Part shown: positions 28,313 to 62,737 of the stretch, in pieces
How the letters are laid out: each line of letters starts with the position of its first letter
How positions within the stretch are numbered: position 1 is the stretch's first letter
Assembly: GCF_003014495.1 (NCBI RefSeq)
Contig: NZ_PYGC01000004.1
Span: forward strand, 248,001-312,000
From: Prolixibacter denitrificans
GTDB taxonomy: Bacteria > Bacteroidota > Bacteroidia > Bacteroidales > Prolixibacteraceae
Direction of reading: 5' to 3'
Length of the DNA: 64,000 bases
Position numbers and translations under genes: made by a program
The notes under the pieces: model-generated
Seen by the model: the letters and a program-made list of their open reading frames with translations, nothing else
Database searches by the model: none
Told to the model about the DNA's origin: nothing

Positions 28313-29296
28313 CTATTTTACATCCGAAAAGTACTTCATGAACTGGGCACGTTCGTAAATCATCGGTTTGTGTACGCTCTCCTGGCTCAGTTTGCCAATG
28401 AGTTCATTTACCGAGTTGTAGTTGTGTGCCTTCATCCAGTTGGTCATATCGGTCAGCATTTGGGGAATAATGCCCATGCCATTTTTGTAGATGGCCGAAG
28501 CCACTTCTACCGCGTTGGCACCTACCAGCAGGTTCTTCAGGATGGTTTCTCCATCGTGAATACCGGTTGAAGCCGCCATGTCGCAAGCCAGTTTTCCCTT
28601 CAGGATGCCAATCCAGCGAAGGACCATGGCATTCTCGTCGGGGTTGCTGTAAATGTGCGACGAGGTGATTTTCATCTTCTCGAGGTCCACATCCGGGCGA
28701 TAAAAACGGTTGAACAGTACCAGCGATGAAATTCCGGTTTCCGACAGTTTGATGGCAAAATTCGCCATACCCGAGAAGAAATTGCTAATCTTCAGGGCCA
28801 CCGGAATGGTGATGTGCTGTTTAATGGCTGCCACAATATCAAAGTAAATCTGCTCGATATCGGCACCTTCATAATTACCGTCCGACGGCATGATGAACAT
28901 GTTCAGTTCGAGTGCATCGGCACCCGCTTCCTGGATGCGGCTGGCAAACTCGGTCCACTCCGATGCTGACACACAGTTGATGCTGGCGATGATCGGTATG
29001 GAAGTCTTCTTTTTGCTTTCGCGAATCAATTCCAGGTAATGGTCGATGCGGTGTTTTTTAGTGTAGAAACCGATGTAGTTTTCCACATCGTCGTACGAGC
29101 CATACATGTTGTTCATGCGCTGTTCGTCGATGTCCATCATGATCTGCTCTTCGAAAAGCGACTTGAGCACGACAGCACCTGCGCCGTTGATTTCCAGTTT
29201 CACGACATTCTCAACCGAATCGGTCAGGCCGGAACTGGCAGCGATAATGGGATTTCTCAAATCCAATCCCATGTATTTTGTCGAAAGATCGGTCAT
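28313..29296 (-). CDS. Dihydroorotate dehydrogenase-like flavoprotein
   Basis: A 327-aa TIM-barrel flavoprotein resembling class 1 DHODH (LSTKYMGLDLRNPIIAASSGLTDSVENV, IPIIASINCVSASEW, GADALELNMF, ITIPVALKISNFF, STGIHDGETILKNLLVGANAVEVASAIYKNG). The strand that in true PyrD carries NxSCPN with the catalytic base reads ELNMFIMPSD here, so it is unlikely to oxidise dihydroorotate in the normal way. It may serve as an FMN electron-transfer protein. It follows the Mbx-like operon on the same strand but has its own -7 box at 29338-29345. Confidence 0.8.
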   Translation of the reverse strand: MTDLSTKYMGLDLRNPIIAASSGLTDSVENVVKLEINGAGAVVLKSLFEEQIMMDIDEQRMNNMYGSYDDVENYIGFYTKKHRIDHYLELIRESKKKTSIPIIASINCVSASEWTEFASRIQEAGADALELNMFIMPSDGNYEGADIEQIYFDIVAAIKQHITIPVALKISNFFSGMANFAIKLSETGISSLVLFNRFYRPDVDLEKMKITSSHIYSNPDENAMVLRWIGILKGKLACDMAASTGIHDGETILKNLLVGANAVEVASAIYKNGMGIIPQMLTDMTNWMKAHNYNSVNELIGKLSQESVHKPMIYERAQFMKYFSDVK

Positions 29297-29521: not shown

Positions 29522-31318
29522 TTATTTTTCAGACAAATATTTATCGATGCCCATGGCCGCTTTATGACCGTTGGCAATACCGTGAATTACATCAGGTCCC
29601 TGGATGATGTCACCACCGGCGAACAGCCATCCGGCACTGGTTTGGAAATCGTCGTTTACCAGGATTCGTCCGCGTTGGTCCATATCCAGCTGCTCTTTGA
29701 ACGCTTCCGGCAGGTACGAAAGATCCATTCCCTGACCGATGGACTCAACCACCATGTCAGCCGGGAAGAACTTCTTCTGCTCTTCGTCAAACTTCGGAGC
29801 GAAACGACGGTTTTCGTCGAATACCGACAGGCATTTCACCACGTGCAAACCTTTCACTTTATCACCTTCGGTTTCGATTTCAACTGGTCCCCATCCCGGA
29901 TCGATAACGGCGTTCTCTTCGCGGGCTTCAATTACCTCTTCACGGTCGGCCGGCATAATGTCTTCCGATTCGAGTGAAGTGGCCAACACACCCACTTTGC
30001 CGTATTTCTGTTTCTGCAAACGAGCCAGTGAACGGGTGATGTCCATTGCCACGTTACCACCACCAATCACCACGATATTCTCTTCCAGCGGTATCTCTTT
30101 ACCCAGCACGATGTCACGCAGCAAATCGACTGCCTGGTATACTTTCGGATGGTCGGTTCCGGGTACACGAGTACTACGGCCCATGTGCAAACCGGTTCCT
30201 GAGAAGACTGCGTCATACTGGTTGTGCAACTCTTCCAGTGTGATATCCTTACCGATGGTCACATTGTATTTAATTTCAACGCCCAATGAAAGGATGTAGT
30301 TGATATCCTTGTCGAGCTGGTCGTACGGCAGACGATATTCCGGAATACCGAAACGCATCATACCACCGGCAGCCGGTAATTTTTCGTAGATGGTACACTG
30401 GTAACCCATGAGGGCCAGATAATGTGCAGCGGACAAGCCGGAAGGTCCTGAACCGATAATAGCGACTTTCTTCCCGGTAGGTTGCAAGTTCTCGGTATTG
30501 AGGATTTTCTTGTACTCCTCTGCCGGATTCTGGTCAGCGATGTAACGCTTCAGCCAGCGAATTGACAACGGATCACCATGGTGACCAACGGAACAAACGG
30601 TTTCACACTTGTGGGTACAGATACGACCGCAAATTTCAGGCAGCGGGTTGGTGTCGTACAGCACGCGCAAACCTTCGTTCAAATCGTCGTTACGAATGGC
30701 TTTGATGTACTCCGGAATACCCATGTGAGCAGGACAGGTAGCCACACAGATACCACATTCCACACAACGGTCGGCTTCCTGCTCAGCCTGCTCTTTCGAG
30801 TATCCCTGTACGATTTCGATGAATGACTGGTCGCGTTTTTCCGGTTCCAGCTCTTCCATCGCTTCACGCTTCGGATTGTAAAGCTCATAGCCGTTACCCG
30901 GTTTTTTGTAACCTTTTTCGCGGCTGTCCCACGACTTGTTCTCAGCACCGGGAACGAAGCGGAAGTTATCCGGGTCTTCGTCCACCCAGGTATATTCATT
31001 ACTCAGCGAAAGCGAATTGGTGGTACAAACATCCACACACAGACCGCACCAGCAGCAGCGTCCGTAGTCTACACGGGGACGCAGACCACTGTCGCCATCC
31101 TTTGTTTCGACGCCGTCCACCGGCACCAGGTCGATGGCAGCATTCTGACAAATGGACTCGCAGGTACCGCAACCAATACATTCACTGATATCGTTTTTAT
31201 GAAATCCCCGGTACCGGTCGGCAGCCTCACGGTTCAGCGGATCCTTGATGGTCACGGGTTCGCGGACCACATGTTTCCATGCTGTGAACGGGGACAGTAT
31301 ATCATTTAACTTTGCCAT
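29522..31318 (-). CDS. Ferredoxin/GltD-like NAD(P)H oxidoreductase fusion subunit of the Mbx-like complex
   Basis: A 598-aa fusion. Residues about 1-125 are NuoI/MbxN-like, with two [4Fe-4S] motifs: C47-C50-C53-C57 and C88-C91-C94-C98. Residues about 165-265 form the Fer4_20 domain of GltD-type proteins, with C185-C188-C191-C195 and C230, C234, C238, C242. Residues about 283-598 are the FAD/NAD(P)H part: FAD motif GSGPSG (289-294), GG-type loop AAGGMMRFGIPEYRLP, and second dinucleotide motif VVIGGGNVAMD (417-425). This would accept or donate electrons from NAD(P)H at the peripheral arm. It is the last gene of the 12-gene operon, 2 bases after the large subunit. Confidence 0.88.
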   Translation of the reverse strand: MAKLNDILSPFTAWKHVVREPVTIKDPLNREAADRYRGFHKNDISECIGCGTCESICQNAAIDLVPVDGVETKDGDSGLRPRVDYGRCCWCGLCVDVCTTNSLSLSNEYTWVDEDPDNFRFVPGAENKSWDSREKGYKKPGNGYELYNPKREAMEELEPEKRDQSFIEIVQGYSKEQAEQEADRCVECGICVATCPAHMGIPEYIKAIRNDDLNEGLRVLYDTNPLPEICGRICTHKCETVCSVGHHGDPLSIRWLKRYIADQNPAEEYKKILNTENLQPTGKKVAIIGSGPSGLSAAHYLALMGYQCTIYEKLPAAGGMMRFGIPEYRLPYDQLDKDINYILSLGVEIKYNVTIGKDITLEELHNQYDAVFSGTGLHMGRSTRVPGTDHPKVYQAVDLLRDIVLGKEIPLEENIVVIGGGNVAMDITRSLARLQKQKYGKVGVLATSLESEDIMPADREEVIEAREENAVIDPGWGPVEIETEGDKVKGLHVVKCLSVFDENRRFAPKFDEEQKKFFPADMVVESIGQGMDLSYLPEAFKEQLDMDQRGRILVNDDFQTSAGWLFAGGDIIQGPDVIHGIANGHKAAMGIDKYLSEK

Positions 31319-31320
31319 AA

Positions 31321-32511
31321 TTATCGTTCAATTTCAGGTGGATACGTATGCAATGAAACCATTAATCCGGCCACATCGGCGATGTTGGCGTTTACAATCA
31401 TCTTCTCGAGAAGGGCCACAGCGTGCGTATAGCTCGGTCCGCGTACGTTGATTCTGCGCGGGTATTCGGTTCCGTCGGAAACCATGTAATAACCGTACTC
31501 ACCGCGGGTACATTCAGCACGCGAATAAGTCTCGCCGGCTGGCACTTTCCAGTGCAGGACGTTCGGAGTTTTCGCGCGGATATCGCCTTTATCCGGAATT
31601 TTCGCCATGATCTGACGAATCAAATCAACCGTCATCAGCAAATCGCGGCGACGAACATCGGCACGGGTGTAGATATCAGAATCTTTTCCTACAACCGGTT
31701 CGAAATCCAGCTCCGGATATTTCAGATACGGATTGTCCTTGCGGACATCTTTGGCCACACCCGCTGCACGAGCATTAGGGCCGGTAATACCGAAGGGATG
31801 AATCCAGGCCGGGTCGATAACGCCCATACCAACGGTCCGTTTCTTGAACACGGCGTTGTCGAACATCACCTTCTTCACGTCCTTCATGAATCTATCAATT
31901 TCGTCGAGGTTCTCAGTCATCCGCTGGCGGAAACCGTCAGGCAGCAAACCGCGAACACCACCGGGCAGCATATACATGTGATAAATACGGCCTCCGGTCA
32001 GTTCCTCGAAACGATCGAGAATCAGGTCACGCAGGTAAATCGTCCATTGTCCGATGATACCCTGTCCGAGAGAACCGGCCTGTCCGCCCATCCACGCGAG
32101 GAAGCTTTGCAGACGAGACATTTCCAGTACGAGAGTACGCAACCACTCGGCAGCTTCCGGCACTTCGATGCCGGCCAGCTCTTCCATCGCGGAAGCGAAA
32201 CAGTACTCGTTAAAATCAGGTTCGGGAACCGCTACACGGCATACAATCGGGAAACACTGAATGTATTTCCGGCGCTCCATCAGCTTTTCGAAACCACGGT
32301 GCAGATAGCCCACGTGTGTTTCGCAATCCATTACTTCATCGCCCAGCAAAGTCAGCTCCAGCGACATATTTCCGGTGATACCGGGGTGCTGAGGGCCATG
32401 CCAGATTTTCATGAACTTGTGCGAATCGTAATCCACGTCAATCTTGCCCTCGCTATTTTTTTCGGGGAAGAGGGTTCTGTCCTCGTTCCATTTCAGCAGC
32501 TTCTTACTCAT
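31321..32511 (-). CDS. NuoD/hydrogenase-large-subunit-like protein of the Mbx-like complex
   Basis: A 396-aa homologue of complex I 49-kDa subunit and of group 4 hydrogenase large subunits (GPQHPGITGNMSLELTLLGDEV, VGYLHRGFEKLMERRKYIQ). A [NiFe] enzyme would need two CxxC motifs. Here the N-terminal site is C86-x4-C91 and the C-terminal site reads DVAGLMVSLH without any cysteine. It therefore cannot bind [NiFe] in the usual way and should work like NuoD/MbxL, coupling electron flow near the last cluster to ion pumping. It overlaps the NuoC-like gene by 8 bases. Confidence 0.88.
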   Translation of the reverse strand: MSKKLLKWNEDRTLFPEKNSEGKIDVDYDSHKFMKIWHGPQHPGITGNMSLELTLLGDEVMDCETHVGYLHRGFEKLMERRKYIQCFPIVCRVAVPEPDFNEYCFASAMEELAGIEVPEAAEWLRTLVLEMSRLQSFLAWMGGQAGSLGQGIIGQWTIYLRDLILDRFEELTGGRIYHMYMLPGGVRGLLPDGFRQRMTENLDEIDRFMKDVKKVMFDNAVFKKRTVGMGVIDPAWIHPFGITGPNARAAGVAKDVRKDNPYLKYPELDFEPVVGKDSDIYTRADVRRRDLLMTVDLIRQIMAKIPDKGDIRAKTPNVLHWKVPAGETYSRAECTRGEYGYYMVSDGTEYPRRINVRGPSYTHAVALLEKMIVNANIADVAGLMVSLHTYPPEIER

Positions 32512-33031
32512 TGGGATAAAGCTTTTTCTTCATGTATTCCGCCGGATCGTGTGTTTCGCGTCCCGGACGGGGGAAATACGTTTTCTCCGAATACTCTTTG
32601 GTATCGAAATCGCGCCGGTAAGGTGGAATTTCTTCCCACCCCTCGAGGATGAACGGCTTGTCCACGTCCGGACTGCCGGGGAAGTTGATACCAAACATTT
32701 CGCGCAGCTCACGCTGATAAGTGCGAGCCTGCTCCCACAAGTGGTGGATGGAGTACATCTCAGCGTTCTCGCGGCTAATCATCACGCGAACACCCAAATC
32801 CACTTTCTTTTCAGGATGGTGAAGCAGGTAGGTCAGCTGAAAATGCTCGTCTTCAATCCAGTCGACTGCCGTCAGCAGCACCAGGTGAGCGAAACCTTCA
32901 TAGTCTCTCAGGTGTGTAATCAAACCAACAGCCACCTCTTTTGAGGCAATCAGAAAACCCAGGTTTTCCCGTTGCTGGTGATAGCTGACCACCTGAAAGT
33001 GCTTTTGCAGATTTTCTATAATCGTTTGCAT
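32504..33031 (-). CDS. NuoC-like 30-kDa subunit of the Mbx-like complex
   Basis: A 175-aa protein matching the NADH dehydrogenase 30-kDa family. The family motif is visible as REMFGINFPGSPDVDKPFILEGWEEIPPYRRDFD (residues about 110-145), which contacts the large subunit. The C-terminal tail is short. It is separate from the NuoD-like subunit, as in Mbx/Ech-type complexes, and its 3' end overlaps that gene by 8 bases. It has no redox centre of its own and is a structural part of the peripheral arm. Confidence 0.88.
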   Translation of the reverse strand: MQTIIENLQKHFQVVSYHQQRENLGFLIASKEVAVGLITHLRDYEGFAHLVLLTAVDWIEDEHFQLTYLLHHPEKKVDLGVRVMISRENAEMYSIHHLWEQARTYQRELREMFGINFPGSPDVDKPFILEGWEEIPPYRRDFDTKEYSEKTYFPRPGRETHDPAEYMKKKLYPNE

Positions 33032-33060
33032 AATCTTCTTTTTTACAGGTTCAAACCAGT

Positions 33061-33702
33061 TTACCAGTTATAATCGGGCATATCCCAGTCCTTGATAATT
33101 TTCTTCTGGTTGCCTTTGTACCAGTCGAAGTTCTCGGCGTACTTGTTGGCGCCCTCTCCTCTTCCTTCACGGATGATATGCTTCAGTTTGTCGAAACCGG
33201 CCAGGAGTGCTTCCGGGCGCGGCATACAACCGGCAATGTATACGTCAACCGGCATGTAATGATCGAGACGGTTAATGGTGTTGTAACTGTCCCAGTACAT
33301 TCCGCCGTTGATGGTACAGCTTCCGAGCGCTACCACAAATTTGGGGTTCTGCATTTGTTCGTAACTGCGAACCACGCGTTTCAGCGTTTTCACCGAAAGG
33401 TAACCAGAGATAACGAACACCGAAGCCTGACGGGGCGTTGGCCGCCACTGGATACCAAAACGGTAAGCATCGAAACGGGGCGTCATGAGCGGGCGCATTT
33501 CAATCGCACCACACCCGGTTCCGAAACCAAGCACCCAGAGTGATTCGCTTCGGGCCCAGTTGGCGAACTTTTCGATGATGCCACTGGCCGATTTGCATGA
33601 TTTAGGAGCGGCATCGCAGAAGTAATCCTTCAACGGATCCACCTCAATTGGATTACCTTCCGGTGAGATGACGGTCCTCTTTTCTATATATTCTTTACCC
33701 AT
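33061..33702 (-). CDS. NuoB/hydrogenase-small-subunit-like protein of the Mbx-like complex
   Basis: A 213-aa homologue of NuoB, the protein that carries the terminal [4Fe-4S] cluster (N2 position). The family's tandem cysteine site reads TGCGAIEM: C64 is present but the second position is Gly65 (codon GGT). The other two ligands are at C129 (ALGSCTINGGMY) and C159 (IAGCMPRPEALL). Additional cysteines, C29 and C36, lie near the N-terminus and could replace the missing ligand. Whether this is typical of the Mbx branch could not be checked. It lies between the NuoH-like and NuoC-like genes, 12 bases after the former. Confidence 0.87.
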   Translation of the reverse strand: MGKEYIEKRTVISPEGNPIEVDPLKDYFCDAAPKSCKSASGIIEKFANWARSESLWVLGFGTGCGAIEMRPLMTPRFDAYRFGIQWRPTPRQASVFVISGYLSVKTLKRVVRSYEQMQNPKFVVALGSCTINGGMYWDSYNTINRLDHYMPVDVYIAGCMPRPEALLAGFDKLKHIIREGRGEGANKYAENFDWYKGNQKKIIKDWDMPDYNW

Positions 33703-33714
33703 GTCAACTAAGCT

Positions 33715-34629
33715 TTAAAAGTATTTGACTACCAGGATGGCGGCCACCCCGATTAACAGCGGGATACCCAGGTACCACCGCACCGACTGGTCGACCCGGA
33801 AACGCGGGTAAGCGATTCCAACAAACACCGACCACATGTATATGAAGAAGGTTTTGATAATCAGTTCGCCCCAATTGGTAGCGCCACCAAACAGCAGGTT
33901 CATGAAAAGGATGAGCTTGGCTGCCGGGAAAATAGCGCGGTTGAGCTGAAGTACACCCAGCAAGGCTGAATGGTACTCGGTTGGCGGGCCAATCGGAATT
34001 TCCTGCGGTGCCAGTACCACGTCGAATGGCGAGCGTCCCATCATTGCCAGGAACGACAACATCATCGCGATAGCAGCCAGCGGGTTGGTAAAGAGCGTCC
34101 AGTGGAGGATGCTTCCCTGCTGTGCAGCTACGATATCGTGAATATTCAAGGTATGATACTGAACAGCCAGTGCCAGAACACCCAGCGTCAGCGGAAGCTC
34201 CATGGCGGTGGTCTGAGCCAGACCGCGTGAAACACCCAGTGCCGAATACGGGTGACCGCTTTCACCTGCTCCCAGTGCCATTCCCAGTACACCAAAGAAC
34301 TGGAAGTAGAGCACGAAGGTTAAGTCCCCGGCGAACGAGAAGTTATCGAATACCGGTGAACCGTAAATCACGGGCAGGAACAGCAGCAAGCCAATTCCTC
34401 CGGTTAACCGGAAAACCGGGCCAATGTAGTACATGATGCCGTGAGTAATCCGGGTACGGAATGTATAGTTCTTGATTAAGTCGATGTATGGCTGGTAAAA
34501 CCGAATGCCATGCCGGCGCCCTACCCTTGCTCCAATCTTGTGAACCACACCCGAAAGAATCAATCCGTAGTTGGTCACAATAAACAGGGTGAGCAGCGCG
34601 TATAGTATTTTCGTTACAATAGTTCCCAT
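33715..34629 (-). CDS. NuoH-like membrane subunit of the Mbx-like complex
   Basis: A 304-aa membrane protein with about eight hydrophobic helices, homologous to NuoH/MbxM, which anchors the hydrophilic arm. Marks: GESGHPYSALGVSRGLAQTTAMELPL, GRSPFDVVLAPQEIPIGPPTEYHSALLG and a helix ending RFRVDQSVRWYLGIPLL. The conserved acidic loop of NuoH, needed to link the cluster region to the antiporters, is represented by these E residues. Its start codon directly follows the stop of the fused antiporter gene with no gap. Confidence 0.88.
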   Translation of the reverse strand: MGTIVTKILYALLTLFIVTNYGLILSGVVHKIGARVGRRHGIRFYQPYIDLIKNYTFRTRITHGIMYYIGPVFRLTGGIGLLLFLPVIYGSPVFDNFSFAGDLTFVLYFQFFGVLGMALGAGESGHPYSALGVSRGLAQTTAMELPLTLGVLALAVQYHTLNIHDIVAAQQGSILHWTLFTNPLAAIAMMLSFLAMMGRSPFDVVLAPQEIPIGPPTEYHSALLGVLQLNRAIFPAAKLILFMNLLFGGATNWGELIIKTFFIYMWSVFVGIAYPRFRVDQSVRWYLGIPLLIGVAAILVVKYF

Positions 34630-37600
34630 TTAAAAACCTCCAAATGAAATTAGGTAGATGATAACGATGAATGCCATAATGTGTATCACATAAGACTGTC
34701 CGTCGCCGTTGTAGATTTTCCGGATTTTATCGCCCATGGCATGCGCCCATTCAGCAACACCTTCCCACCATCCGGTGATTTTCGGTTCAACCAGAATACC
34801 GATGGCTTTACGGTAATGTGCATAGAAGTTATAGGCGTAATGTGTCGTTTCGGGTTTGAACGGACGCTCAGCGGCAAACACAATGTTGAACTGTTTTACC
34901 TTCTGTGCCCTGCGGTTGTTGATGATTAACCAAACCAGTACCACCAGGAAGATGCTAACCACGATGTAGAAAATCACCAAACCGTTCCAGTAACCAAACG
35001 GACTAACAGCGTGCTGTCCGGTCCAGTCCAAAGCTCCTACCGGGAAGTAAGGAGTGATGATCTTGCCAATCGGTTTCAGCAGTGAATTCGGAACAGCCGA
35101 AAAGAACAACAATACGCCGATAATCAGGTACTGTGGAACGAGAATCCAAAACGGAGCCTCTTTTACTTCGCGGTGCTCGTCCTTCAACTGACCGAGGAAA
35201 ACCGAGTGAATCAACCGGAAGGTATAGAGGAATGCCACAATTCCGGAGAAGAAAATCAAGGCTCCCTGCAGGTACCACTGTTTCATCATGATGGCGTTGT
35301 AGAAAATCCATTTTCCGGAGAAACCGGACAATGGTGGCAAACCAGCCAACACAATGATTCCGATCAGAACAGAGAAGAATGAGAACGGCATCCGTTTGAT
35401 GAGTCCTCCCATGCGGTACATCTCTTTCGTCTTCACCCGCCATACGACTCCACCGATAGCAAGGAAGAGCAATGCTTTAAACATGAAGTGAGTGACCGAA
35501 ATGGAAATGGCCGATAACCATCCTAAGTGCGACATCAGCGACAGGCCGAACAGGATGTAACCCAGCACGCCCACACTGGAATAAGCCAGCAAACGCTTGG
35601 CATCTTCCTGGAAAGCTGCCATCAGGTTTCCCATTACTGCGGTGATGGCACCCAGCCAACCCAACAGGTAAATCACACTCACTTCTCCGCCAATCAACTG
35701 GTCGCCCATAGCCAGGAACAGCGTTACCAAACCGAAAACACCAGCTTTCAGCAGGATGGCAGACACCATCGGAGAGACATCGGTCTCTGCTTCGGCGTGT
35801 GCACCCGGCAGCCAGATGTGCAATCCAAGCGACGCGGTTTTCGTCATAAAACCAACCGCCAGCAGGATGAACACCCAGGTCGGATAAACCAGCACATGTG
35901 AAAGCGTGCTCATATCGAGGTTAAACTGTCCAACCGACGCGATGGCGAAACCAGCCAGCATCAGGTAAGCCCCTCCCATCGAGAAGATCATGTAACTCAA
36001 TGCGTGCGGCATCGATTTCTTACCCCTAATAATCAGGAAATAAGAACCAACGGTCATTACTTCCCAGGCATAGAAGAATGCGATGGTGGTTTTTGCTTCA
36101 ATCAGACCAATCAGGCCGGCAAACATCATCAGGGCAAACGGATAGAAACCGCGGCGCTGACCTTTGTAAGCATAGCCGGCAATCAGGGTTACAATACCTC
36201 CCACCATGAAGATGGCTCCGAACACGGCTCCAAAGCTGGAAAGTGTTGGGTAGAGATAATAATAGTAGTAAGCCATGGCCAGAATAGCCAGGGTATTTTT
36301 CACATACGCCGGAAGGAAGTCAATCAGCACGAATGCCAGTGCAACTGCCAACGGGATGTAGTTAATCACTTTTGCGTAAGGGTGAATCGAGCTAACGAAA
36401 TAGCCAATCACGAAGGTCGCAGCTCCGAAGACAACTACCGGCAATACCTTGTTCCATTTCACTTCGAAAGAAGGCAGTTCCGTATTGTCCAGTTTCAGTG
36501 CGTAGCCCAACCAGCGGAAAAGATAAACACCTTCGAGCAGTGAGCCGAGTAATACGCCAATGATCCAAAAATACTGGTTAGAGGCAGCCAACTGCAGCAT
36601 CATGTCCCATTTTCCGAAGAAAGAAGGGAAAGGAGGAAAACCAATCAGCGTAAAAACAAACACGCCGAAAAGAATCATCAACAGGCGGCTGTTGCGCAGT
36701 ACAGCCCACTCTTTGATTGTGGAGCGCTTCACGATTCCGGAAATCCAAAACAATCCGGCTTTCGCCAGGAAGTGACTAATCAGAATGCTGTAGGCAATGA
36801 ATGTCGTGCGCTCGCCCAGAAACTCAGAAAGTCCCAGGATAGTCACCAGCAAACCAACCTGTCCGATGGATGAATAACCCAACAAACGATTCGGGTTGGT
36901 TTGTTTCAGGCCCATCAGGTTGGAACCGATGAAGGTAGCCAGACCAATACCGGCCAGTACCATATGGAACTGCGGAGTTCCCAGCGGCAACAGTTTGTAC
37001 ATCACGAAGAATGATGCAGTGGCTGTTCCGGCGGAAATCAGAGCAGCGATGCCCGAATCGGCACTTTCGTATACATCCAGTCCCCAACCGTTAGCCGGAA
37101 AAGGTTTCAATTCGAGTACAATGGCAATCAGCACAAAGAAGACAGCCACGCCAAATCCTTTCACCGCAAGGGAATGAACGGCCAGGAAATCATCGATATT
37201 CAGGGTACCGGTAAAATAGTACATGAAAACGATTCCCAGCAACAGGATTCCGGAGATAATTCCGGTGGCCAGCATGTATTTAAAACCGGCGGCGATAGTT
37301 CTCAGGTTTTGACTGAAGATAATCAGACCAGCCGTTGCAATGCTGCTGATTTCAAGAAACACAAACAGGTTGAACAAGTCGCGGGTCATGATGATCACGT
37401 TCAGACCGAGAATCATTCCCATCAGGGTGACGTAACCGTTCGAACCAATTTTCTTTAACTTATCCCAGAGATAAACTGCTCCGAAAAATCCGGCTATGTT
37501 TATCAGGGACGTAAACAGTGCTTCCTCTTTTCCCATCAACAGGTTGATGGAGAATGGCGGTTGAAAGCCTGCGGTATAAATATACTCGGCAGCCCTGTCG

Positions 37601-37761
37601 TACAACCAGAAACCGGCCAGCCATTCGAGGGAAATGAAGGATGCAAAACCGAGCGCCAGCAGTGAGAGGAAGCCAGCCGATGAGTTCATTTTCTTTCCAA
37701 ATAAACCCAGGCCGAATGCAACTCCCAGCAACGTAGCGATGATGTAGATAGGTGCTACCAT
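34630..37761 (-). CDS. Fused double MnhD/NuoL-type antiporter subunit
   Basis: A 1043-aa membrane protein made of two antiporter-like modules. First module, residues about 1-480: E137 in NLFVFLEISS and K161 in GFKYML are the TM5 Glu and TM7-type Lys pair, with K219 in LELKPFPANGW. Second, about 490-1000: E567 in FFYAWEVMTVG and K641 in MTKTASLGLHIWLPGAHAEAETDVSP. Archaeal Mbx/Mbs has two separate genes at this spot (H and H'); here they are one polypeptide. It should move Na+ or H+. About 28 helices are expected. The C-terminal tail (about 960-1043) is partly hydrophilic and ends with one more helix. Confidence 0.9.
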   Translation of the reverse strand: MVAPIYIIATLLGVAFGLGLFGKKMNSSAGFLSLLALGFASFISLEWLAGFWLYDRAAEYIYTAGFQPPFSINLLMGKEEALFTSLINIAGFFGAVYLWDKLKKIGSNGYVTLMGMILGLNVIIMTRDLFNLFVFLEISSIATAGLIIFSQNLRTIAAGFKYMLATGIISGILLLGIVFMYYFTGTLNIDDFLAVHSLAVKGFGVAVFFVLIAIVLELKPFPANGWGLDVYESADSGIAALISAGTATASFFVMYKLLPLGTPQFHMVLAGIGLATFIGSNLMGLKQTNPNRLLGYSSIGQVGLLVTILGLSEFLGERTTFIAYSILISHFLAKAGLFWISGIVKRSTIKEWAVLRNSRLLMILFGVFVFTLIGFPPFPSFFGKWDMMLQLAASNQYFWIIGVLLGSLLEGVYLFRWLGYALKLDNTELPSFEVKWNKVLPVVVFGAATFVIGYFVSSIHPYAKVINYIPLAVALAFVLIDFLPAYVKNTLAILAMAYYYYYLYPTLSSFGAVFGAIFMVGGIVTLIAGYAYKGQRRGFYPFALMMFAGLIGLIEAKTTIAFFYAWEVMTVGSYFLIIRGKKSMPHALSYMIFSMGGAYLMLAGFAIASVGQFNLDMSTLSHVLVYPTWVFILLAVGFMTKTASLGLHIWLPGAHAEAETDVSPMVSAILLKAGVFGLVTLFLAMGDQLIGGEVSVIYLLGWLGAITAVMGNLMAAFQEDAKRLLAYSSVGVLGYILFGLSLMSHLGWLSAISISVTHFMFKALLFLAIGGVVWRVKTKEMYRMGGLIKRMPFSFFSVLIGIIVLAGLPPLSGFSGKWIFYNAIMMKQWYLQGALIFFSGIVAFLYTFRLIHSVFLGQLKDEHREVKEAPFWILVPQYLIIGVLLFFSAVPNSLLKPIGKIITPYFPVGALDWTGQHAVSPFGYWNGLVIFYIVVSIFLVVLVWLIINNRRAQKVKQFNIVFAAERPFKPETTHYAYNFYAHYRKAIGILVEPKITGWWEGVAEWAHAMGDKIRKIYNGDGQSYVIHIMAFIVIIYLISFGGF

Positions 37762-38126
37762 TTCAAGTCTTTATAATTTTGAATGTTCAACGTTTTCTTT
37801 TCGTTATGAAGCTTCATGGCGTAAACCAGCATCAAAGCGGTTACACCCAGGCCAATCACGATAGCTGTCAATACCAGCGCCTGTGGCACCGGGTCAACAA
37901 TCTTATGTGCGGTATCGGTTTGCAGATCGGGCTGGTTCAGAATCGGAGCGGTTTTGTTTTTCACATAACCGAGCGCCACAATAATAATGTGTGTGCCCGT
38001 GTCGAACAGTGAGAAACCAATCACCATCTTCAGGATATTCTTCCGGGTGAGAATGCCCCAGATTCCGATCAGCAGAATCAGGAAACCAACGACCAGACTG
38101 ATATATTCTATACTAAAGAGTTGCAT
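37755..38126 (-). CDS. mnhC: MnhC/NuoK-like antiporter subunit
   Basis: A 123-aa membrane protein with three helices, the normal size of MnhC/MrpC and NuoK. Helix 1 LVVGFLILLIGIWGILTRKN, helix 2 VIGFSLFDTGTHIIIVALGY, helix 3 ALVLTAIVIGLGVTALMLVYAMKL; the phrase VPQALVLTAIVIG is diagnostic. The hydrophilic loop KNKTAPILNQPDLQTD is typical of Mrp members. It overlaps the fused antiporter gene by 7 bases. Confidence 0.9.
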   Translation of the reverse strand: MQLFSIEYISLVVGFLILLIGIWGILTRKNILKMVIGFSLFDTGTHIIIVALGYVKNKTAPILNQPDLQTDTAHKIVDPVPQALVLTAIVIGLGVTALMLVYAMKLHNEKKTLNIQNYKDLKW

Positions 38127-38831
38127 TTATCCTTCTTTTTGAGATTCTTTCAGATTACGGACAATACCGGTCAGTTCGGAACCAACTTTCAGTCCGATAA
38201 GAATGTAGATAATCGGGATGGCGCCGGCACTCAACAGCGTACCGAATTTTCCCATCGCCAGGATATGGTTATCAAGAAATCCGCCGGCCAGCAAAACACC
38301 TAACAGGCCGATGAAAACAAAGGAAATTCCCGAAATCGATTCAACCACCGAAATCACTTTGTGGCTGAAATGTTTCTGCGGACGCGACAACAGCAGGAGT
38401 GCAAATGCCGACGCAATGACTGCACCTCCCTGGAAACCTCCACCCGGAGTTAAGTGTCCGTTGATGAAGATGTACACGCCCAACAGCAGAATCATGGGAA
38501 CCAGCAACCGTGAAGCCGTTACCAGAATTTCTGTCGATTTGAAGAAAACCGACCGGGTATCCTTGGTATAGGTTTCCGAAGCCTTCAGAAAAAGGCCGAT
38601 AACCGCAGAGGCCAGAAACAGGATGGTCACCTCACCCAGCGTATCGAAACCACGGTAGGTAACTACCACCGCCGATACGAGGTTGGCTGCTCCCACCTCT
38701 TCTTTTCCGTAGTTGGCATAATGCTCAGCAACACCGGTCAACGCATCTTTCGCTTCGTACGAGTGCAGAAGTGGAAAAATCGCTGCGGCAAATCCGAGCA
38801 ATACCAGCAGTATTAAACTATTCCTGAGCAT
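38127..38831 (-). CDS. MbhE/MnhB-like antiporter subunit
   Basis: A 234-aa membrane protein joining an MbhE-type N-terminus (about 1-95: NLVSAVVVTYRGFDTLGEVTILFLASAVIGLFLKASE) to an MnhB domain (about 100-225: LLVPMILLLGVYIFINGHLTPGGGFQGGAVIASAFALLLL). GHxTPGGGFQGG is the MnhB signature. In Mrp proper the first piece belongs to the end of MnhA; in Mbh/Mbx it is separate. Its first 14 bases overlap the preceding gene, and its stop touches mnhC. Confidence 0.88.
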   Translation of the reverse strand: MLRNSLILLVLLGFAAAIFPLLHSYEAKDALTGVAEHYANYGKEEVGAANLVSAVVVTYRGFDTLGEVTILFLASAVIGLFLKASETYTKDTRSVFFKSTEILVTASRLLVPMILLLGVYIFINGHLTPGGGFQGGAVIASAFALLLLSRPQKHFSHKVISVVESISGISFVFIGLLGVLLAGGFLDNHILAMGKFGTLLSAGAIPIIYILIGLKVGSELTGIVRNLKESQKEG

Positions 38832-39069
38832 TATTTCGTCTTATTTTATTATACACATAGAAGAAAATGAGGGTCGTCAAACCACTTCCAATCGACGCTT
38901 CCGTCAACGCCACATCAGGAGCGGCCAGCAGCACATACAGCACCGATGCAAACAGACTGGTAACACCTGCCGCAATGATGGCTGTTTTCAGGTCCTTATT
39001 ATACACCGCGATGACCGCAGCCACCAGCATAATAATTCCCAGTACAATGGCTATAATCAGATAAATCAT
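38818..39069 (-). CDS. MbhD-like (DUF4040) subunit
   Basis: An 83-aa protein with three hydrophobic helices. The sequence LKTAIIAAGVTSLFASVLYVLLAAPDVALTEASIGSGLTTLIFFYVYNKI is the DUF4040/MbhD pattern, with the conserved APDVALTEA that includes a membrane-embedded Asp and Glu. It corresponds to a C-terminal piece of MnhA. It overlaps mnhG by 4 bases and the next gene by 14. Confidence 0.88.
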   Translation of the reverse strand: MIYLIIAIVLGIIMLVAAVIAVYNKDLKTAIIAAGVTSLFASVLYVLLAAPDVALTEASIGSGLTTLIFFYVYNKIRRNNAQE

Positions 39070-39425
39070 AGGGCGTTGTTTACAGGTTCAACTTCTTTAT
39101 TTTCGATATCCTCTGCCAAACGGTCAACCGTTGTTTTATCCGAAAGCGGGACTCCGTAGCGGTAAGCATTGCGCGCCAACACGTGCGATGAAACCGGGTT
39201 GGAGATACCTACAAACAGCATCAGGATGAACAGTTTTCCGACCCATCCGGGGAAAATGAAAATCAATCCCAGCAGGGTGAGAACAGTTCCGAAGGTTGAC
39301 GCTTTGGTTCCCGTTTGGATGCGATTGTATAAATCGGGCATCCTGACCAGACCGAGCGCTCCAAGGAACAGAGCAATCGAGCCCATCAGGGTAATCACGG
39401 CGCCAATTATTTTCAGTATTTCCAT
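39066..39425 (-). CDS. mnhG: MnhG-like antiporter subunit
   Basis: A 119-aa membrane protein with three helices. MEILKIIGAVITLMGSIALFLGALGLVRMPDLYNRIQTGTKASTFGTVL is the typical MnhG start, with RMPDxYxRxQxxTKAsT. The frame is open to 39461, but ATG 39425 lies one base after the mnhF stop and gives the expected N-terminus. The C-terminal tail is charged and cytoplasmic. Confidence 0.88.
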   Translation of the reverse strand: MEILKIIGAVITLMGSIALFLGALGLVRMPDLYNRIQTGTKASTFGTVLTLLGLIFIFPGWVGKLFILMLFVGISNPVSSHVLARNAYRYGVPLSDKTTVDRLAEDIENKEVEPVNNAL

Positions 39426-39426
39426 A

Positions 39427-39687
39427 TCACAAGCTTTTTTCAAGGAATTTTGCCACAACAATCACCCCGATGAAACTCAGCAGGCCGTAAACGACAGCCA
39501 CATCAAGGTATATCAGCCGGTTGGCGAAATAGGATATCAGGGCAATCAGCCCGATGGACGCAATGGTCATTACATCGAAGGCAATCACGCGATCGGCGGT
39601 ATTCGGACCTTTGATGAAACGGTAGAGCGAAAGCAGTACCGAAAGCAGGATCAGCACGACGCTGATAGTAAGAACTGTATTAACCAT
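39427..39687 (-). CDS. mnhF: MnhF-like antiporter subunit
   Basis: An 86-aa protein with three helices, usual size for MnhF. The motif LYRFIKGPNTADRVIAFDVMTIASIGLIAL contains the conserved GPxxxDRVxAxD. Its start overlaps the end of mnhE by 8 bases, indicating translational coupling. Confidence 0.9.
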   Translation of the reverse strand: MVNTVLTISVVLILLSVLLSLYRFIKGPNTADRVIAFDVMTIASIGLIALISYFANRLIYLDVAVVYGLLSFIGVIVVAKFLEKSL

Positions 39688-40174
39688 AAATCACCTCCAG
39701 GTATTTTTCGAATTTCTGAACGATCTCTTTCGTAGCTGCCTCAACATCCTTATCTTGTACATCGATCCAGTGGATGTAGAGGTACTTCTTCTCGATAGCC
39801 AGAGTAAAGGTACCAGGCGTAAGTGTGATGGAATTGGCCAGAATCATCCGGGCCATTTTTGATTTCAGTTTGGTCTTTACCTTCACAATCCCGGGGTTGA
39901 TGGGAAGCTTTGGGGAAATCACCCGGCGGGTAACATCCAGGTTCGCTTTCACCAACTCAAACGCAAAAACGAAGAGATAAATGAAGGTGTAAAGAAACGC
40001 TTTGGGGGTAAGCCGCATATCGGCAAACACGTCACAACGCGCACAGAAAAACATCGGAATAATCAGCGAAACAATTAAACCGGTGACGATAATGGGCGTC
40101 GTAAAAGTGCCGTTTAGCAACAACCAAAATCCAAACAGAATCACGAAAGAAATTCCTATGTTCTTAACATTCAT
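39680..40174 (-). CDS. mnhE: MnhE-like antiporter subunit
   Basis: A 164-aa protein: two N-terminal hydrophobic segments (FVILFGFWLLLNG, TPIIVTGLIVSLIIPMFFC), a third around YTFIYLFVFAFELVKANLDVTRRVI, then a cytoplasmic domain with MARMILANSITLTPGTFTLAIE, the classical MnhE pattern. It is the first gene of the 12-gene operon; a -7-like box (40286-40279) lies about 105 bases upstream. Confidence 0.9.
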   Translation of the reverse strand: MNVKNIGISFVILFGFWLLLNGTFTTPIIVTGLIVSLIIPMFFCARCDVFADMRLTPKAFLYTFIYLFVFAFELVKANLDVTRRVISPKLPINPGIVKVKTKLKSKMARMILANSITLTPGTFTLAIEKKYLYIHWIDVQDKDVEAATKEIVQKFEKYLEVIYG

Positions 40175-40278
40175 TGGTTTGTTGTTTTATTTAATAACCT
40201 AAATATCTTGATGTAATAATACCTACATATATGGATGCTTACAGGAAATCGAATATGACATTCGGAAAGTCAAAAAAC

Positions 40279-40286
40279 CAAACATA
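40279..40286 (-). promoter_or_regulatory. Putative -7 box of the Mbx-like operon
   Basis: Minus-strand TATGTTTG matches TAnnTTTG. It would give a leader of about 100 bases before mnhE. The -33 element is weak. Confidence 0.4.
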
Positions 40287-40308
40287 CATATGTTGAAATA
40301 GCCTTGTG

Positions 40309-40328
40309 TACATCTGTAAATAGATGTA
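40309..40328. promoter_or_regulatory. Operator-like inverted repeat TACATCT-N6-AGATGTA
   Basis: Perfect 7-base arms with a 6-base spacer between the FNR-type gene and the Mbx-like operon. For the plus-strand gene it lies between a TTG (-33-like, 40304-40306) and TATGTTTA (40327-40334, -7-like), so a bound protein would affect its promoter; it is 23 bases upstream of the operon -7 box. Confidence 0.5.
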
Positions 40329-40377
40329 TGTTTACGCGCGAATTATCACAAGAAACGGAGAAATTGTAAGGAGCTGA

Positions 40378-41073
40378 ATGATTGACAATAGCACAAAAAC
40401 ATCATGCCTTTTATGCCAGAATAAATCGGCTTGTTTTGAAAAATTATCGGAAGAGGAGTTGCTTTCGGTAGATGAAAGACGGGTTGAATTGCACTATCGC
40501 AAAGGGGAAGTTATCGCCAAACAGGGCTCATTTGTCACCCATATATTATTCCTGAAAAAAGGACTGACCAAAATCTATCGTGAAATTGACAAGGATAATA
40601 ACCTCATCCTAAACTTTTACCCGAGTGGCAAACTGATGGGGCTTTCGTCATTGTACATGAACAGTATTCTGCAGTTCTCGATTGCAGCTGTCGAAGATTC
40701 CGTGATTTGTGCCATGGATATCCACATTTTTGAGAAGTTCGTGCGCCAAAACGGTCAATTTGCGGCATCCATCATTCATGCCATCAACCAACACTTTGCA
40801 CACCGTACCGAAAAACTGGTCTCGCTGACACAGAAGCAGATGAACGGCCGTTTGGCAGAAGCATTTCTTTTCTTCGCCGACCAACTTTACAGAAGCGATT
40901 CATTTCACCTCTCGCTTACACGGAAAGATATCGCTGAGTTTACAGGAATGTCCGTGATGAGTGTGGTGCGAGGTATCAAGGACTTCAAAGAGAACGGAAT
41001 TCTGGAAGACAGCAATGGCGATATTACCTTGCTGAAACGCGACATGCTGGAAAAAATCAGCCAAACCGGCTAG
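40378..41073 (+). CDS. FNR-type oxygen-sensing transcriptional regulator
   Basis: A 231-aa Crp/Fnr protein. The N-terminus has C10, C13 and C19, the C-x2-C-x5-C spacing of FNR, and C111 (SVICAMD) 92 residues later, matching the fourth FNR ligand. A [4Fe-4S] oxygen sensor is therefore likely. The nucleotide-binding-like roll covers about 25-145 and the helix-turn-helix about 185-210 (LTRKDIAEFTGMSVMSVVRGIKDFKENGIL). It is divergent from the Mbx-like operon across 203 bases and is the natural candidate for its anaerobic control. It ends 4 bases from the tamB stop, convergently. Confidence 0.88.
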   Translation: MIDNSTKTSCLLCQNKSACFEKLSEEELLSVDERRVELHYRKGEVIAKQGSFVTHILFLKKGLTKIYREIDKDNNLILNFYPSGKLMGLSSLYMNSILQFSIAAVEDSVICAMDIHIFEKFVRQNGQFAASIIHAINQHFAHRTEKLVSLTQKQMNGRLAEAFLFFADQLYRSDSFHLSLTRKDIAEFTGMSVMSVVRGIKDFKENGILEDSNGDITLLKRDMLEKISQTG

Positions 41074-60642: not shown

Positions 60643-61668
60643 ATGCAAATACTGTCTCCCAACGAATTTCTTAGCAAAGCAGAAAATACTCCGGTAGTTG
60701 ATGTTCGCTCTCCAGCCGAATACACCGAAGGCCATATTCCGGAGGCGGTAAACATTGCTCTCTTTTCAAATGAAGAGCGGGCAGAAATCGGGACGATATA
60801 CAAGCAACAAGGGAGAACGGAAGCCATCGAGCGCGGTTTGGACATTATCGGTCCGAAGATGTCCCGATTTGTGAAGGAGGCGCAAGCGTTGGCGGGAAAT
60901 GGAGAATTATTGGTTCATTGCTGGCGCGGCGGCATGCGTTCGGAAAGTATGGCCTGGCTGTTTGAGCGTGTCGGCATCCGGTGCTTCACGCTTAAAGGAG
61001 GCTACAAGGCCTACCGCAATTTACTGCTGGAAGAATTCGCCTCAATTCCAAACTTAATTGTGTTGGAAGGCTTTACCGGTAGTGGAAAAACAGAAATTAT
61101 ACAGGAACTGGCCCGCCAGGGAGAGCAGATTCTTGATCTGGAAGGCTTGGCGAATCATCGGGGTTCAGTGTTTGGTGGTGTTGGGCAAGGTGACCAGCCT
61201 ACTACTCAGCAATTCCAGAATATCCTTTTGGCAGCTTTACGAAAACTCGACAAGGAAAAACGCATTTGGGTCGAAGGGGAAAGCAAAAGCATTGGTCATG
61301 TTTTCTTGCCTGATCCTTTCTGGAAAGCCATGAACCAGGCCCGAATCATCGAAATAGAGGTTCCTGTTGAACAGCGCGTTAAACGAGTTGTCAAAGACTA
61401 CGGACAATTGGAAAGGTCCAGAATGACAGACGCCATTATGTCGTTGCACAAACGCCTTGGAGAACAGCGAACCAACCTGATTCTTGATTTATACCAAAAC
61501 AATGAGTTGGAACAGGTTGCAGAATTACTGCTGAGTTATTACGATAAAGCCTACCGATACAGTCGTGATAAATACAAAAAGAGCTACGCAAGCATCGATT
61601 TGAGCGGAAAGGATATTCGTGAAGATGCAGTGAAGCTGGTTAAGAAAGCAAACGAATTAAAATTATAG
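60643..61668 (+). CDS. selU: tRNA 2-selenouridine synthase
   Basis: A 341-aa protein (also called mnmH or ybbB). It changes 2-thiouridine at the wobble position of certain tRNAs to 2-selenouridine through a geranylated intermediate, using selenophosphate. N-terminal rhodanese domain (about 1-130) with the active-site Cys93 in [18 protein letters not shown]-loop GFTGSGKT at 143-150; C-terminal HKRLGEQRT region. Full length. selD starts 7 bases after its stop, giving a two-gene selenium-modification operon. Confidence 0.95.
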
Positions 61669-61675
61669 AAGGAAA

Positions 61676-62737
61676 ATGGAAAAAGGTTCAGATAACAAAA
61701 TACCTGTTGAACCCCTTAGGCTCACTCAATATTCGCATGGAGCGGGATGTGGTTGCAAGATTTCGCCAAAGGTTCTTCGGAACATTTTAGCTGAAACAAA
61801 AACGGAAGTTGACGATCCCAATCTTTTGGTTGGCAACGGAACGCTTGATGATGCGGCGGTGTATGCCATCGATGATGAAAAAGTGCTCATATCTACCACC
61901 GATTTCTTTACGCCTATTGTTGACGATCCTTATGATTTTGGCGGCATTGCATCGGTGAATGCTATCAGCGACATTTATGCTATGGGTGGCAAACCATTGA
62001 TGGCTATTGCCATTTTGGTTTGGCCGGTAGATAAGCTTCCTGCCGAAACAGCAGGCAAAGTTCTCGAAGGAGCCAAACGAGCCTGTGCACAAGCTGGTAT
62101 CGCCATTGCAGGCGGGCACAGCATCGACGGCCCGGAGCCTGTCTTTGGATTGGCCGTAACCGGAATCGCTTCGCGTGATCACGTTAAAAAGAACAGTTCA
62201 GCGAAAGCCGGATGTGAACTGTACCTTACCAAGCCATTGGGTGTTGGCATTTTAACGACCGCACAAAAACAAGGCCTTCTGAAAGAAGAAGATTTGAATG
62301 TCGCCCGCAATTCCATGATTACGCTGAACAAAATTGGTCAGGAACTGGGAGAATTAGAGGGAGTTTCGGCCATTACCGACGTAACCGGATTTGGATTGCT
62401 GGGACACCTCTCTGAAATTTGTGAAGGAAGTAATCTGAGTGCCACTGTAGAATTGGCTAAAGTTCCGGTGCTGAACAATCTTGATTTCTATATCGAACAC
62501 AAAACCTTCCCGGGAGGAACATTCCGGAATTTCGATAGCTACGGACACAAAATTTCGCCCCTCACGGAAGAACAAAAAGTAGTGTTGTGCGATCCTCAAA
62601 CCAGCGGAGGACTTTTAGTAGCGGTTGATCCGGCCCACCGGGATAAATTCCACGAAGTGACCGCACGATATGGAATGCAGCTGGAATCATTCGGAGTTTT
62701 AACCGAACCGAAGGAATTTGTTGTGGAGGTAAAATAA
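61676..62737 (+). CDS. selD: Selenide, water dikinase (selenophosphate synthetase)
   Basis: A 353-aa ATP-dependent enzyme making selenophosphate. The active site [19 protein letters not shown] is present, with Cys25 (E. coli Cys17) and Lys28 (Lys20); the Cys version, not a Sec one, is encoded. [33 protein letters not shown] and [16 protein letters not shown] form the AIRS-like ATP site. It would supply selU just upstream. No selA, selB or selC is seen in the window, so only selenouridine use is supported here. Confidence 0.95.

Follow-up and report, generated by a model that had tools for sequence, protein, structure and literature searches.

A widespread Mbx/MBS-type membrane complex with a fused flavin input module, encoded in Prolixibacter denitrificans

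The membrane-bound sulfane reductase (MBS, formerly Mbx) of Pyrococcus furiosus, solved as PDB entry 6u8y, has a stand-alone N subunit that is fed by ferredoxin, and its reduction of polysulfide drives Na+/H+ pumping. PMC7684303 reports that it reduces polysulfide at a three-cysteine cluster, with MbsJ C25 and MbsL C85 and C385 uninvolved. For the MBX of Thermotoga maritima, PMC9431562 reports a 4.36-fold rise of mbxA with elemental sulfur (S0) and assumes ferredoxin as the donor. Here we describe a related operon in a 64,000-nucleotide stretch of the Prolixibacter denitrificans genome (contig NZ_PYGC01000004.1, positions 248,001 to 312,000; hereafter the window). Its N subunit and an FAD/NAD(P)H module of the GltD/NfnL type form one protein, and the complex is therefore a variant of MBS rather than MBS proper. 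It is a widespread Mbx/MBS-type form with NAD(P)H input and not a categorically new system. We read it, with a probability of roughly 0.5, as a membrane-bound, ion-coupled and probably reversible NAD(P)H:sulfane-sulfur (or disulfide) oxidoreductase of the MBS type, in which the flavin input is fused to the MbsN domain.

The operon and its fused subunits

Twelve open reading frames (ORFs) on the minus strand occupy window positions 29522-40174, all present in the ORF list with the limits given below. Each matches the Pfam family expected of it, and the best E-values, 5e-17 to 5e-76, exclude chance. The order of transcription is MnhE, MrpF, MnhG, MbhD, MbhE+MnhB, MnhC, H+H', M, J, K, L and the N-GltD fusion. 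This matches what we take to be the archaeal Mbx/MBS order (A-B-C-D-E-G-H-H'-M-J-K-L-N), with H-H' and MbhE-MnhB each forming one gene. The E/F, G/D, D/EB, C/HH' and K/L junctions overlap by 4 to 14 bases; the remaining junctions have gaps of 0 to 29 bases, provided that G, listed from a TTG, begins at the likelier in-frame ATG near 39425.

39680..40174, minus strand: MnhE/MbsA-like subunit, 164 amino acids (aa); PF01899, 4.6e-43
39427..39687, minus strand: MrpF/MbsB-like subunit, 86 aa; PF04066, 5.3e-17
39066..39461, minus strand: MnhG/MbsC-like subunit; PF03334, 1.6e-21
38818..39069, minus strand: MbhD-like subunit, 83 aa; PF13244, 5.3e-20
38127..38831, minus strand: fused MbhE + MnhB subunit, 234 aa; PF20501, 7.9e-8, and PF04039, 1.6e-24
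37755..38126, minus strand: MnhC/MbsG (NuoK-like) subunit, 123 aa; PF00420, 9.8e-25
34630..37761, minus strand: fused antiporter-like H + H' subunit, 1043 aa; PF00361 over two stretches
33715..34629, minus strand: M (NuoH-like) anchor, 304 aa; PF00146, 4e-43
33061..33702, minus strand: J (NuoB-like) subunit, 213 aa, with proximal-cluster motif TGCG; MbsJ match
32504..33031, minus strand: K (NuoC-like) subunit, 175 aa; PF00329, 6.6e-26
31321..32511, minus strand: L (NuoD-like) subunit, 396 aa; MbsL match
29522..31318, minus strand: N + GltD/NfnL fusion, 598 aa; PRK13984, 897.8 bits

The fusion is a single continuous 598-aa frame with an MbsN-like domain (residues 6-150), a Fer4_20 domain (164-266) and an FAD/NAD(P) domain (283-579). 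Its nearest NCBIfam model, PRK13984 ('putative oxidoreductase'), scores 897.8 bits, which falls short of the curated threshold of 946. In an alignment of 36 fusion sequences, neither the 16 cluster cysteines nor the FAD glycines vary. An AlphaFold2 model built from these 36 sequences has a mean predicted local distance difference test (pLDDT) score of 88.6 and a predicted template-modelling (pTM) score of 0.84, the first 30 residues being weakest. Its top fold matches are to the NADP(H)-bound NfnI of P. furiosus (5jca_L; TM-score 0.89 by target), and the sequence of the GltD part likewise resembles NfnL-type proteins in the PDB. The window protein shares with these modules the fold, the FAD site and the two-cluster N-terminal domain; it differs from them in lacking an NfnS-type neighbor, in carrying ATSLE in place of a YRR motif and in being fused to an MbsN domain. 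A preliminary description of this DNA had proposed both the twelve-gene Mbx order and the joining of an MbxN-like ferredoxin to a GltD/NfnB-like FAD module; the ORFs, Pfam matches and tight spacing confirm the former, with H and H' as one gene, and the domains and fold agree with the latter.

The YRR motif follows the second Rossmann strand in the Nfn-type relatives 4ylf, 8oh5 and 9n5u, which we take to be NADPH users. It is present in 13 of 86 fusions (after those with <75% coverage were dropped), while the window fusion and the majority of the rest carry T-(S/A/C)-L-E or a similar sequence there. An acidic residue at this place often signals NADH use. With modest confidence, we predict from these residues NADH for the window protein and NADPH for the 13 YRR fusions. 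One Chlorobiota locus (L087) has an L subunit that lies within the Bacteroidota/Chlorobi group, yet its GltD module is of the YRR (NADPH) type; these mixed signals suggest that input modules may have been swapped between complexes.

Kinship with MBS and the active-site residues

In sequence comparisons with solved structures, several subunits are closest to 6u8y. The L subunit matches MbsL best (317.6 bits, against 200.2 for Thermus complex I Nqo4), J matches MbsJ (218 bits; plant NDH 130), and M matches MbsM (149 bits; MbhM 57 and NDH 52). The H' half is closest to 6u8y_X (199.5 bits; membrane-bound hydrogenase [MBH] H 148.8, for the whole query), and the N domain is closest to MBS among complex I-type chains (82.4 bits; runner-up 48.5). 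The H half has a weak MbsH match of 126.7 bits in which no stretch passes alone, and K favors neither side (53.8 bits for complex I C/D, 52.8 for MbsK).

A quick maximum-likelihood tree of 82 L proteins, which has only 4 non-family rows, no MBH and no bootstrap, and in which long branches are flagged, splits complex I/NDH (3 rows including the host's own copy) from MBS and 78 family members with a Shimodaira-Hasegawa-like approximate likelihood ratio test (SH-aLRT) value of 100. Within the family, a 74-row clade (SH-aLRT 100) contains the window and the fused-H loci, with L019, L021, L071 and L088 outside it. The window's subunits are 35% (L) and 49% (J) identical to those of the host's own complex I. 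The sequence comparisons thus support the view that the complex is kin to Mbx/MBS and apart from canonical complex I; the phylogenetic test that could have refuted the preliminary description came out in its favor.

That description had also argued that an operon without nuoEFG-like genes could not be ordinary complex I. The conclusion stands, on the tree and the residues described below, while the argument does not: the host's canonical complex I (L020, 11 genes) has no nuoEFG beside it either, and so their absence is not diagnostic. The L020 cluster shares with the window operon the core families B, C, D, H, I and K and antiporter-like L/M/N, but nothing in it matches the Mrp-type E/F/G/MbhD/MnhB genes. 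Two NuoF-type ORFs (PF10589; L114 and L115, 607 and 415 aa) lie close together elsewhere, at G000:C1:110824-115609, distant from both complexes; they possibly belong to a multimeric hydrogenase or a formate dehydrogenase.

Residue counts were made for 65 J proteins (those with <55% coverage dropped) and 78 L proteins (<80% coverage dropped). The positions of MbsJ C28, C93 and C123 are Cys in 65/65 J proteins, window included, and where complex I has its second tandem Cys, all 65 have Gly. At the two positions of the Nqo4 quinone residues, Tyr87 is replaced by Val in 78/78 L proteins, and His38 by Thr in 76 and by Pro in 1, with His in 1 (L088); the window has Thr and Val. The host's own complex I, which serves as an internal control, has the tandem cysteines (CC) as well as His38 and Tyr87. 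The three-cysteine J motif and the missing quinone residues, set against this control, therefore indicate that the window site fits the MBS type, unlike the quinone type. Three further MBS cysteines are more variable: MbsJ C25 is Gly in 63/65, with Cys in 2 (L071 and L088); MbsL C85 is Cys in 60/78 (Ala in the window); and MbsL C385 is Tyr in 50/78, as in the window, and Cys in 28/78. The window lacks all three.

Two other assignments were tried and rejected. Canonical complex I is ruled out by the L tree, the quinone residues and the three-cysteine J motif. An [NiFe] hydrogenase of the MBH or Ech type, whose ligands and maturation genes the preliminary description had named as grounds for refutation, is ruled out as well, since none of the five cysteines of the window L form a CxxC pair and no HypD match occurs in the host genome (4.73 Mb, 99.7% complete).

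The H and H' subunits are fused in 51 proteins of >900 aa, including the window's. Each has a gene to itself in L021, L071 (Halanaerobiales) and L088 (Thermotogaceae), L056 reads as two overlapping ORFs, and the remaining loci are truncated by contig ends. The H half has lost the lysine of transmembrane helix 8 (TM8; K250 in MbsH, which carries it) in 51/51 fused proteins, where Thr, Ala, Ser or Gly takes its place. Among the loci with separate H, L021 has retained this lysine, which is missing from L071 and L088. In the H' half the Lys is conserved in 50/51 and the other key residues nearly throughout, with Arg for K399 in 21. Every fused H half also has a Lys two residues after the TM7 Glu (51/51), and loss of the TM8 lysine extends to NADPH-type members. 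We therefore claim neither a dead pump nor a tie to NADH, and dropped the idea that one pump had been lost; the residues suggest instead that the first pump seems to be rewired.

Overall, the window complex is like MBS in its subunit types, its three-cysteine proximal-cluster motif and its lack of quinone residues. It is unlike MBS in the N fusion, the fused H-H', the single MbhE-MnhB gene, the missing MbsJ C25 and MbsL C85/C385, and an H half without K250.

Distribution, neighbors and the sulfur link

Loci of the fusion family were collected by a scan of species genomes, which gave 80 loci, the best of at least 190 confirmed; many loci end at contig ends. At E <= 1e-150, the family is rare, occurring in 2/296 genomes of the phylum, and it is present in 7/61 close relatives, the window's own genome counted in both; its distribution is patchy, with 2 of 3 other genus members carrying it. 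Thermotoga maritima alone has it among 14 control genomes. The loci among these best matches come from Bacteroidota, Chlorobiota, Neomarinimicrobiota, Cloacimonadota, Spirochaetes, Aminicenantes, Delongbacteria, Fermentibacteraceae, Halanaerobiales and Thermotogaceae, and from Alpha-, Beta-, Gamma- and Deltaproteobacteria. Named strains are T. maritima, Magnetovibrio blakemorei MV-1, Thiothrix caldifontis and Celeribacter persicus; carriers also include Thiohalocapsa, Lamprobacter, Thiosymbion, Sedimenticola, Magnetovibrio and Thiothrix. The named carriers nearest to the window are metagenome-assembled genomes of Bacteroidales and Draconibacterium.

Among L021 to L101, 52 loci extend 8.6 kb or more upstream of their fusion gene, and 48 of these have all 12 gene types. 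The other four are L023 (no J found), L055 (no E or G found), L101 (8 types missing) and L097 of a Thiotrichaceae genome, where the fusion stands alone (L097:10001-11782) with no other subunit within its 21.8-kb stretch. The preliminary description had suggested a search for the same fusion and order elsewhere, and the operon turns up in other Bacteroidota and in Thermotogaceae (L088). Its placement of the complex in an anaerobic Bacteroidota proved too narrow: the operon extends to many phyla including Proteobacteria, and the host has a cytochrome bd oxidase gene.

The Thermotogaceae locus L088 scores 1161 bits against PRK13984, over the cut-off, and its fusion lies in an operon where each of the 12 gene types is present. 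Unlike the window, it has separate H and H' genes and keeps C25 and His38, and its L is 38% identical to the window's. T. maritima itself carries the PRK13984 fusion family, and by extension from L088 the fusion probably sits in the T. maritima MBX operon. We found no description of the N-GltD fusion in a literature search that covered few subscription journals (reviews of Mbx by Schut and others may mention bacterial forms) and included parts of PMC7684303, PMC9431562, PMC4053972, PMC6349859, PMC10451490, PMC6085437, PMC3608648 and PMC6405883; a term search of the text of PMC9431562 gives no 'gltD' or 'TM1217'.

The nearest neighbors of the window operon are DHOD-like, Crp/Fnr-like, decarboxylase-like and TamB genes, of which two are of interest here:

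28313..29296, minus strand: dihydroorotate dehydrogenase (DHOD)-like flavoprotein, probable accessory, downstream; PRK07565, 425.8 bits, cut-off 303
40378..41073, plus strand: divergent Crp/Fnr-family regulator; N-terminal C-x2-C-x5-C, FNR-like by eye

Flanking genes were available for 77 of 82 loci. A DHOD-like gene lies beside 11 of them, window included. PreA is the electron partner of PreT, and by analogy the flavoprotein at 28313-29296 is a possible electron partner of the GltD module. A rubrerythrin/ferritin-like gene stands directly downstream in 25 proteobacterial loci, and one of a second type does so in 7 (e.g., L082:11791-12282 and L051:3510-3947); its product might protect an oxygen-sensitive cluster. 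A CBS-domain gene is found beside 15 loci. For the two ferritin-like families and the CBS family, one member each was confirmed by Pfam. No gene of the NfnS type, the partner with FAD and [2Fe-2S] in bifurcating Nfn, is among the nearest window neighbors (the rest of the genome was not searched for one), and the bifurcating machine entertained in the preliminary description is thus without support.

The regulator scores below the cut-off of the NCBIfam Fnr model; a similar neighbor occurs in L022 and L023, with partial look-alikes in L024, L035 and L046. No FNR box is present in 40175-40377 at <=2 mismatches. Between the operon and the regulator, window positions 40281-40328 hold the inverted repeats AACATA-N2-TATGTT and TACATCT-N6-AGATGTA, which are candidate operators. 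Farther away in the window, at 60643-62734, a rhodanese-domain protein is followed by an AIRS-family protein (both by Pfam), a SelU-SelD-like pair by eye. Elsewhere, the host genome has an RnfC-type gene and four POR_N matches, presumably ferredoxin-linked oxidoreductases by family role.

A link to sulfur metabolism is suggestive only. SoxB exceeds its cut-off in 23/30 genomes behind the proteobacterial loci, versus 42/299 in an even sample of the phylum; the 30 are best hits that are mutually related, and one (L097) lacks the rest of the operon. The fusion family itself occurs in 6/299 genomes of the even sample, in one (G675) over part only. In L035 and L036 the operon is followed, at a distance of 2 to 3.5 kb, by a sulfur-transport gene (PF04143, YeeE/YedE-type), the L036 copy (L036:5437-6441) being confirmed by Pfam.

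Proposed mechanism and alternatives

In the reading that we prefer, NAD(P)H (for the window, probably NADH) would give electrons to FAD, from which they would pass through the two [4Fe-4S] clusters of the Fer4_20 domain and the two clusters of the MbsN domain to the J cluster. The fourth iron of that cluster, which has no Cys ligand, would split S-S bonds in a chamber formed by L, J and M, and the energy released would power the HH' antiporter-like pair and the Mrp-type module. What the sequence itself shows is the identity of the subunits, the fusion with its 16 Cys ligand positions, the three-Cys J motif and the loss of quinone and [NiFe] residues. We infer the electron path, the ion movement and the use of NADH over NADPH, and analogy with MBS makes a sulfane or a disulfide the likeliest substrate. 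The drop from NADH to polysulfide is small, about -0.3 to -0.26 V, and we therefore expect near-equilibrium, reversible operation with a host-dependent direction. Anaerobes would reduce sulfur species, and in sulfur oxidizers the complex may run in reverse and produce NADH.

A broader version of this proposal is that the complex is an independent second NADH-driven relative of complex I, with an MBS core and an Nfn-type module in place of NuoEFG, spread over many phyla by horizontal transfer, with NADH/NADPH module swaps, a rewired first pump that lost the TM8 lysine and gained one in TM7, reversible exchange between NAD(P)H and persulfide or polysulfide, and NADH made by reverse flow in sulfur oxidizers. 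We offer it tentatively, and it is clearly the more doubtful of the two.

Several points weigh against an NAD(P)H:sulfane-sulfur enzyme. NADH is a weak donor for polysulfide, and electrons may in truth still come from ferredoxin, as they do in MBS. The preference for NADH rests solely on the missing YRR, and of the host's two GltD proteins, one (L006) has YRR and the other (L007) does not; YRR is therefore no universal NADPH marker, which slightly weakens the NADH call and does not touch the MBS-type site. Loss of the TM8 lysine from the H half could mean weaker coupling, and L088 retains a complex I-type His38. On the sulfur side, kinship and the best-hit choice of the 30 carriers confound the SoxB enrichment; in the even sample, with the center genome excluded, SoxB is present in 2/5 carriers (p = 0.14). 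The neighbor families common to at least 3 loci (ferritin-like, CBS-domain, DHOD-like, regulator and one ABC-like) include no sulfur gene, and many of the host organisms are not known to use sulfur.

The alternative that survives best, unlikely as we hold it, makes ferredoxin the main donor, with the flavin module linking NAD(P)H and ferredoxin. The sulfur site would then receive electrons from both, or else the complex would act as an ion-coupled ferredoxin:NAD(P)+ oxidoreductase. The MbsN domain keeps both of its cluster motifs, the host has the four POR_N matches and the RnfC-type gene, a ferredoxin:NAD(P)+ role was proposed earlier for Mbx (PMC6349859 and PMC3608648), and ferredoxin is what PMC9431562 assumes for T. 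maritima. However, transfer between ferredoxin and NAD(P) within subunit N would bypass the membrane part, and so the three-cysteine J motif in 65/65 proteins would be left unexplained. The RnfC homolog, found in a search aimed at RnfC only, further suggests that Rnf does the ferredoxin-NAD job in this host.

Less probable still is that the complex works mainly in reverse, with ion influx driving electrons from sulfide or thiols to NAD+ and so providing NADH for sulfur oxidizers. The small redox span favors reversibility, among the carriers are Thiothrix, Thiohalocapsa, Lamprobacter, Thiosymbion, Sedimenticola and Magnetovibrio, whose lifestyles we take to be those of sulfur oxidizers, and the SoxB count behind the proteobacterial loci points the same way. 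Against this, the even sample shows no significant SoxB link, and many carriers (Bacteroidota, Spirochaetes and Cloacimonadota) are not known to oxidize sulfur. The rise of T. maritima mbxA given S0 (PMC9431562) also counts against it. An NADH:quinone oxidoreductase with a quinone site built differently, to which the overall complex I architecture and the His38 of L088 might point, is very unlikely given that Tyr87 is absent in 78/78, His38 in 77/78 and the second N2 tandem Cys in 65/65, all of which the host's complex I has.

If an NAD(P)H:sulfane-sulfur oxidoreductase is the correct reading, many bacterial phyla hold a so far unrecognized enzyme that couples electron exchange between NAD(P)H and sulfane sulfur to ion movement. 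The subunits fall into generic families of complex I or of antiporters, and NCBIfam calls the hallmark protein just a 'putative oxidoreductase'. The named carrier strains make this reading testable. MBS chemistry would then reach beyond hyperthermophiles, and the donor assumed for Thermotoga MBX would be called into question. The complex would also be a possible source of NADH for sulfur oxidizers and would offer a comparison point for the gain of NADH input by complex I.

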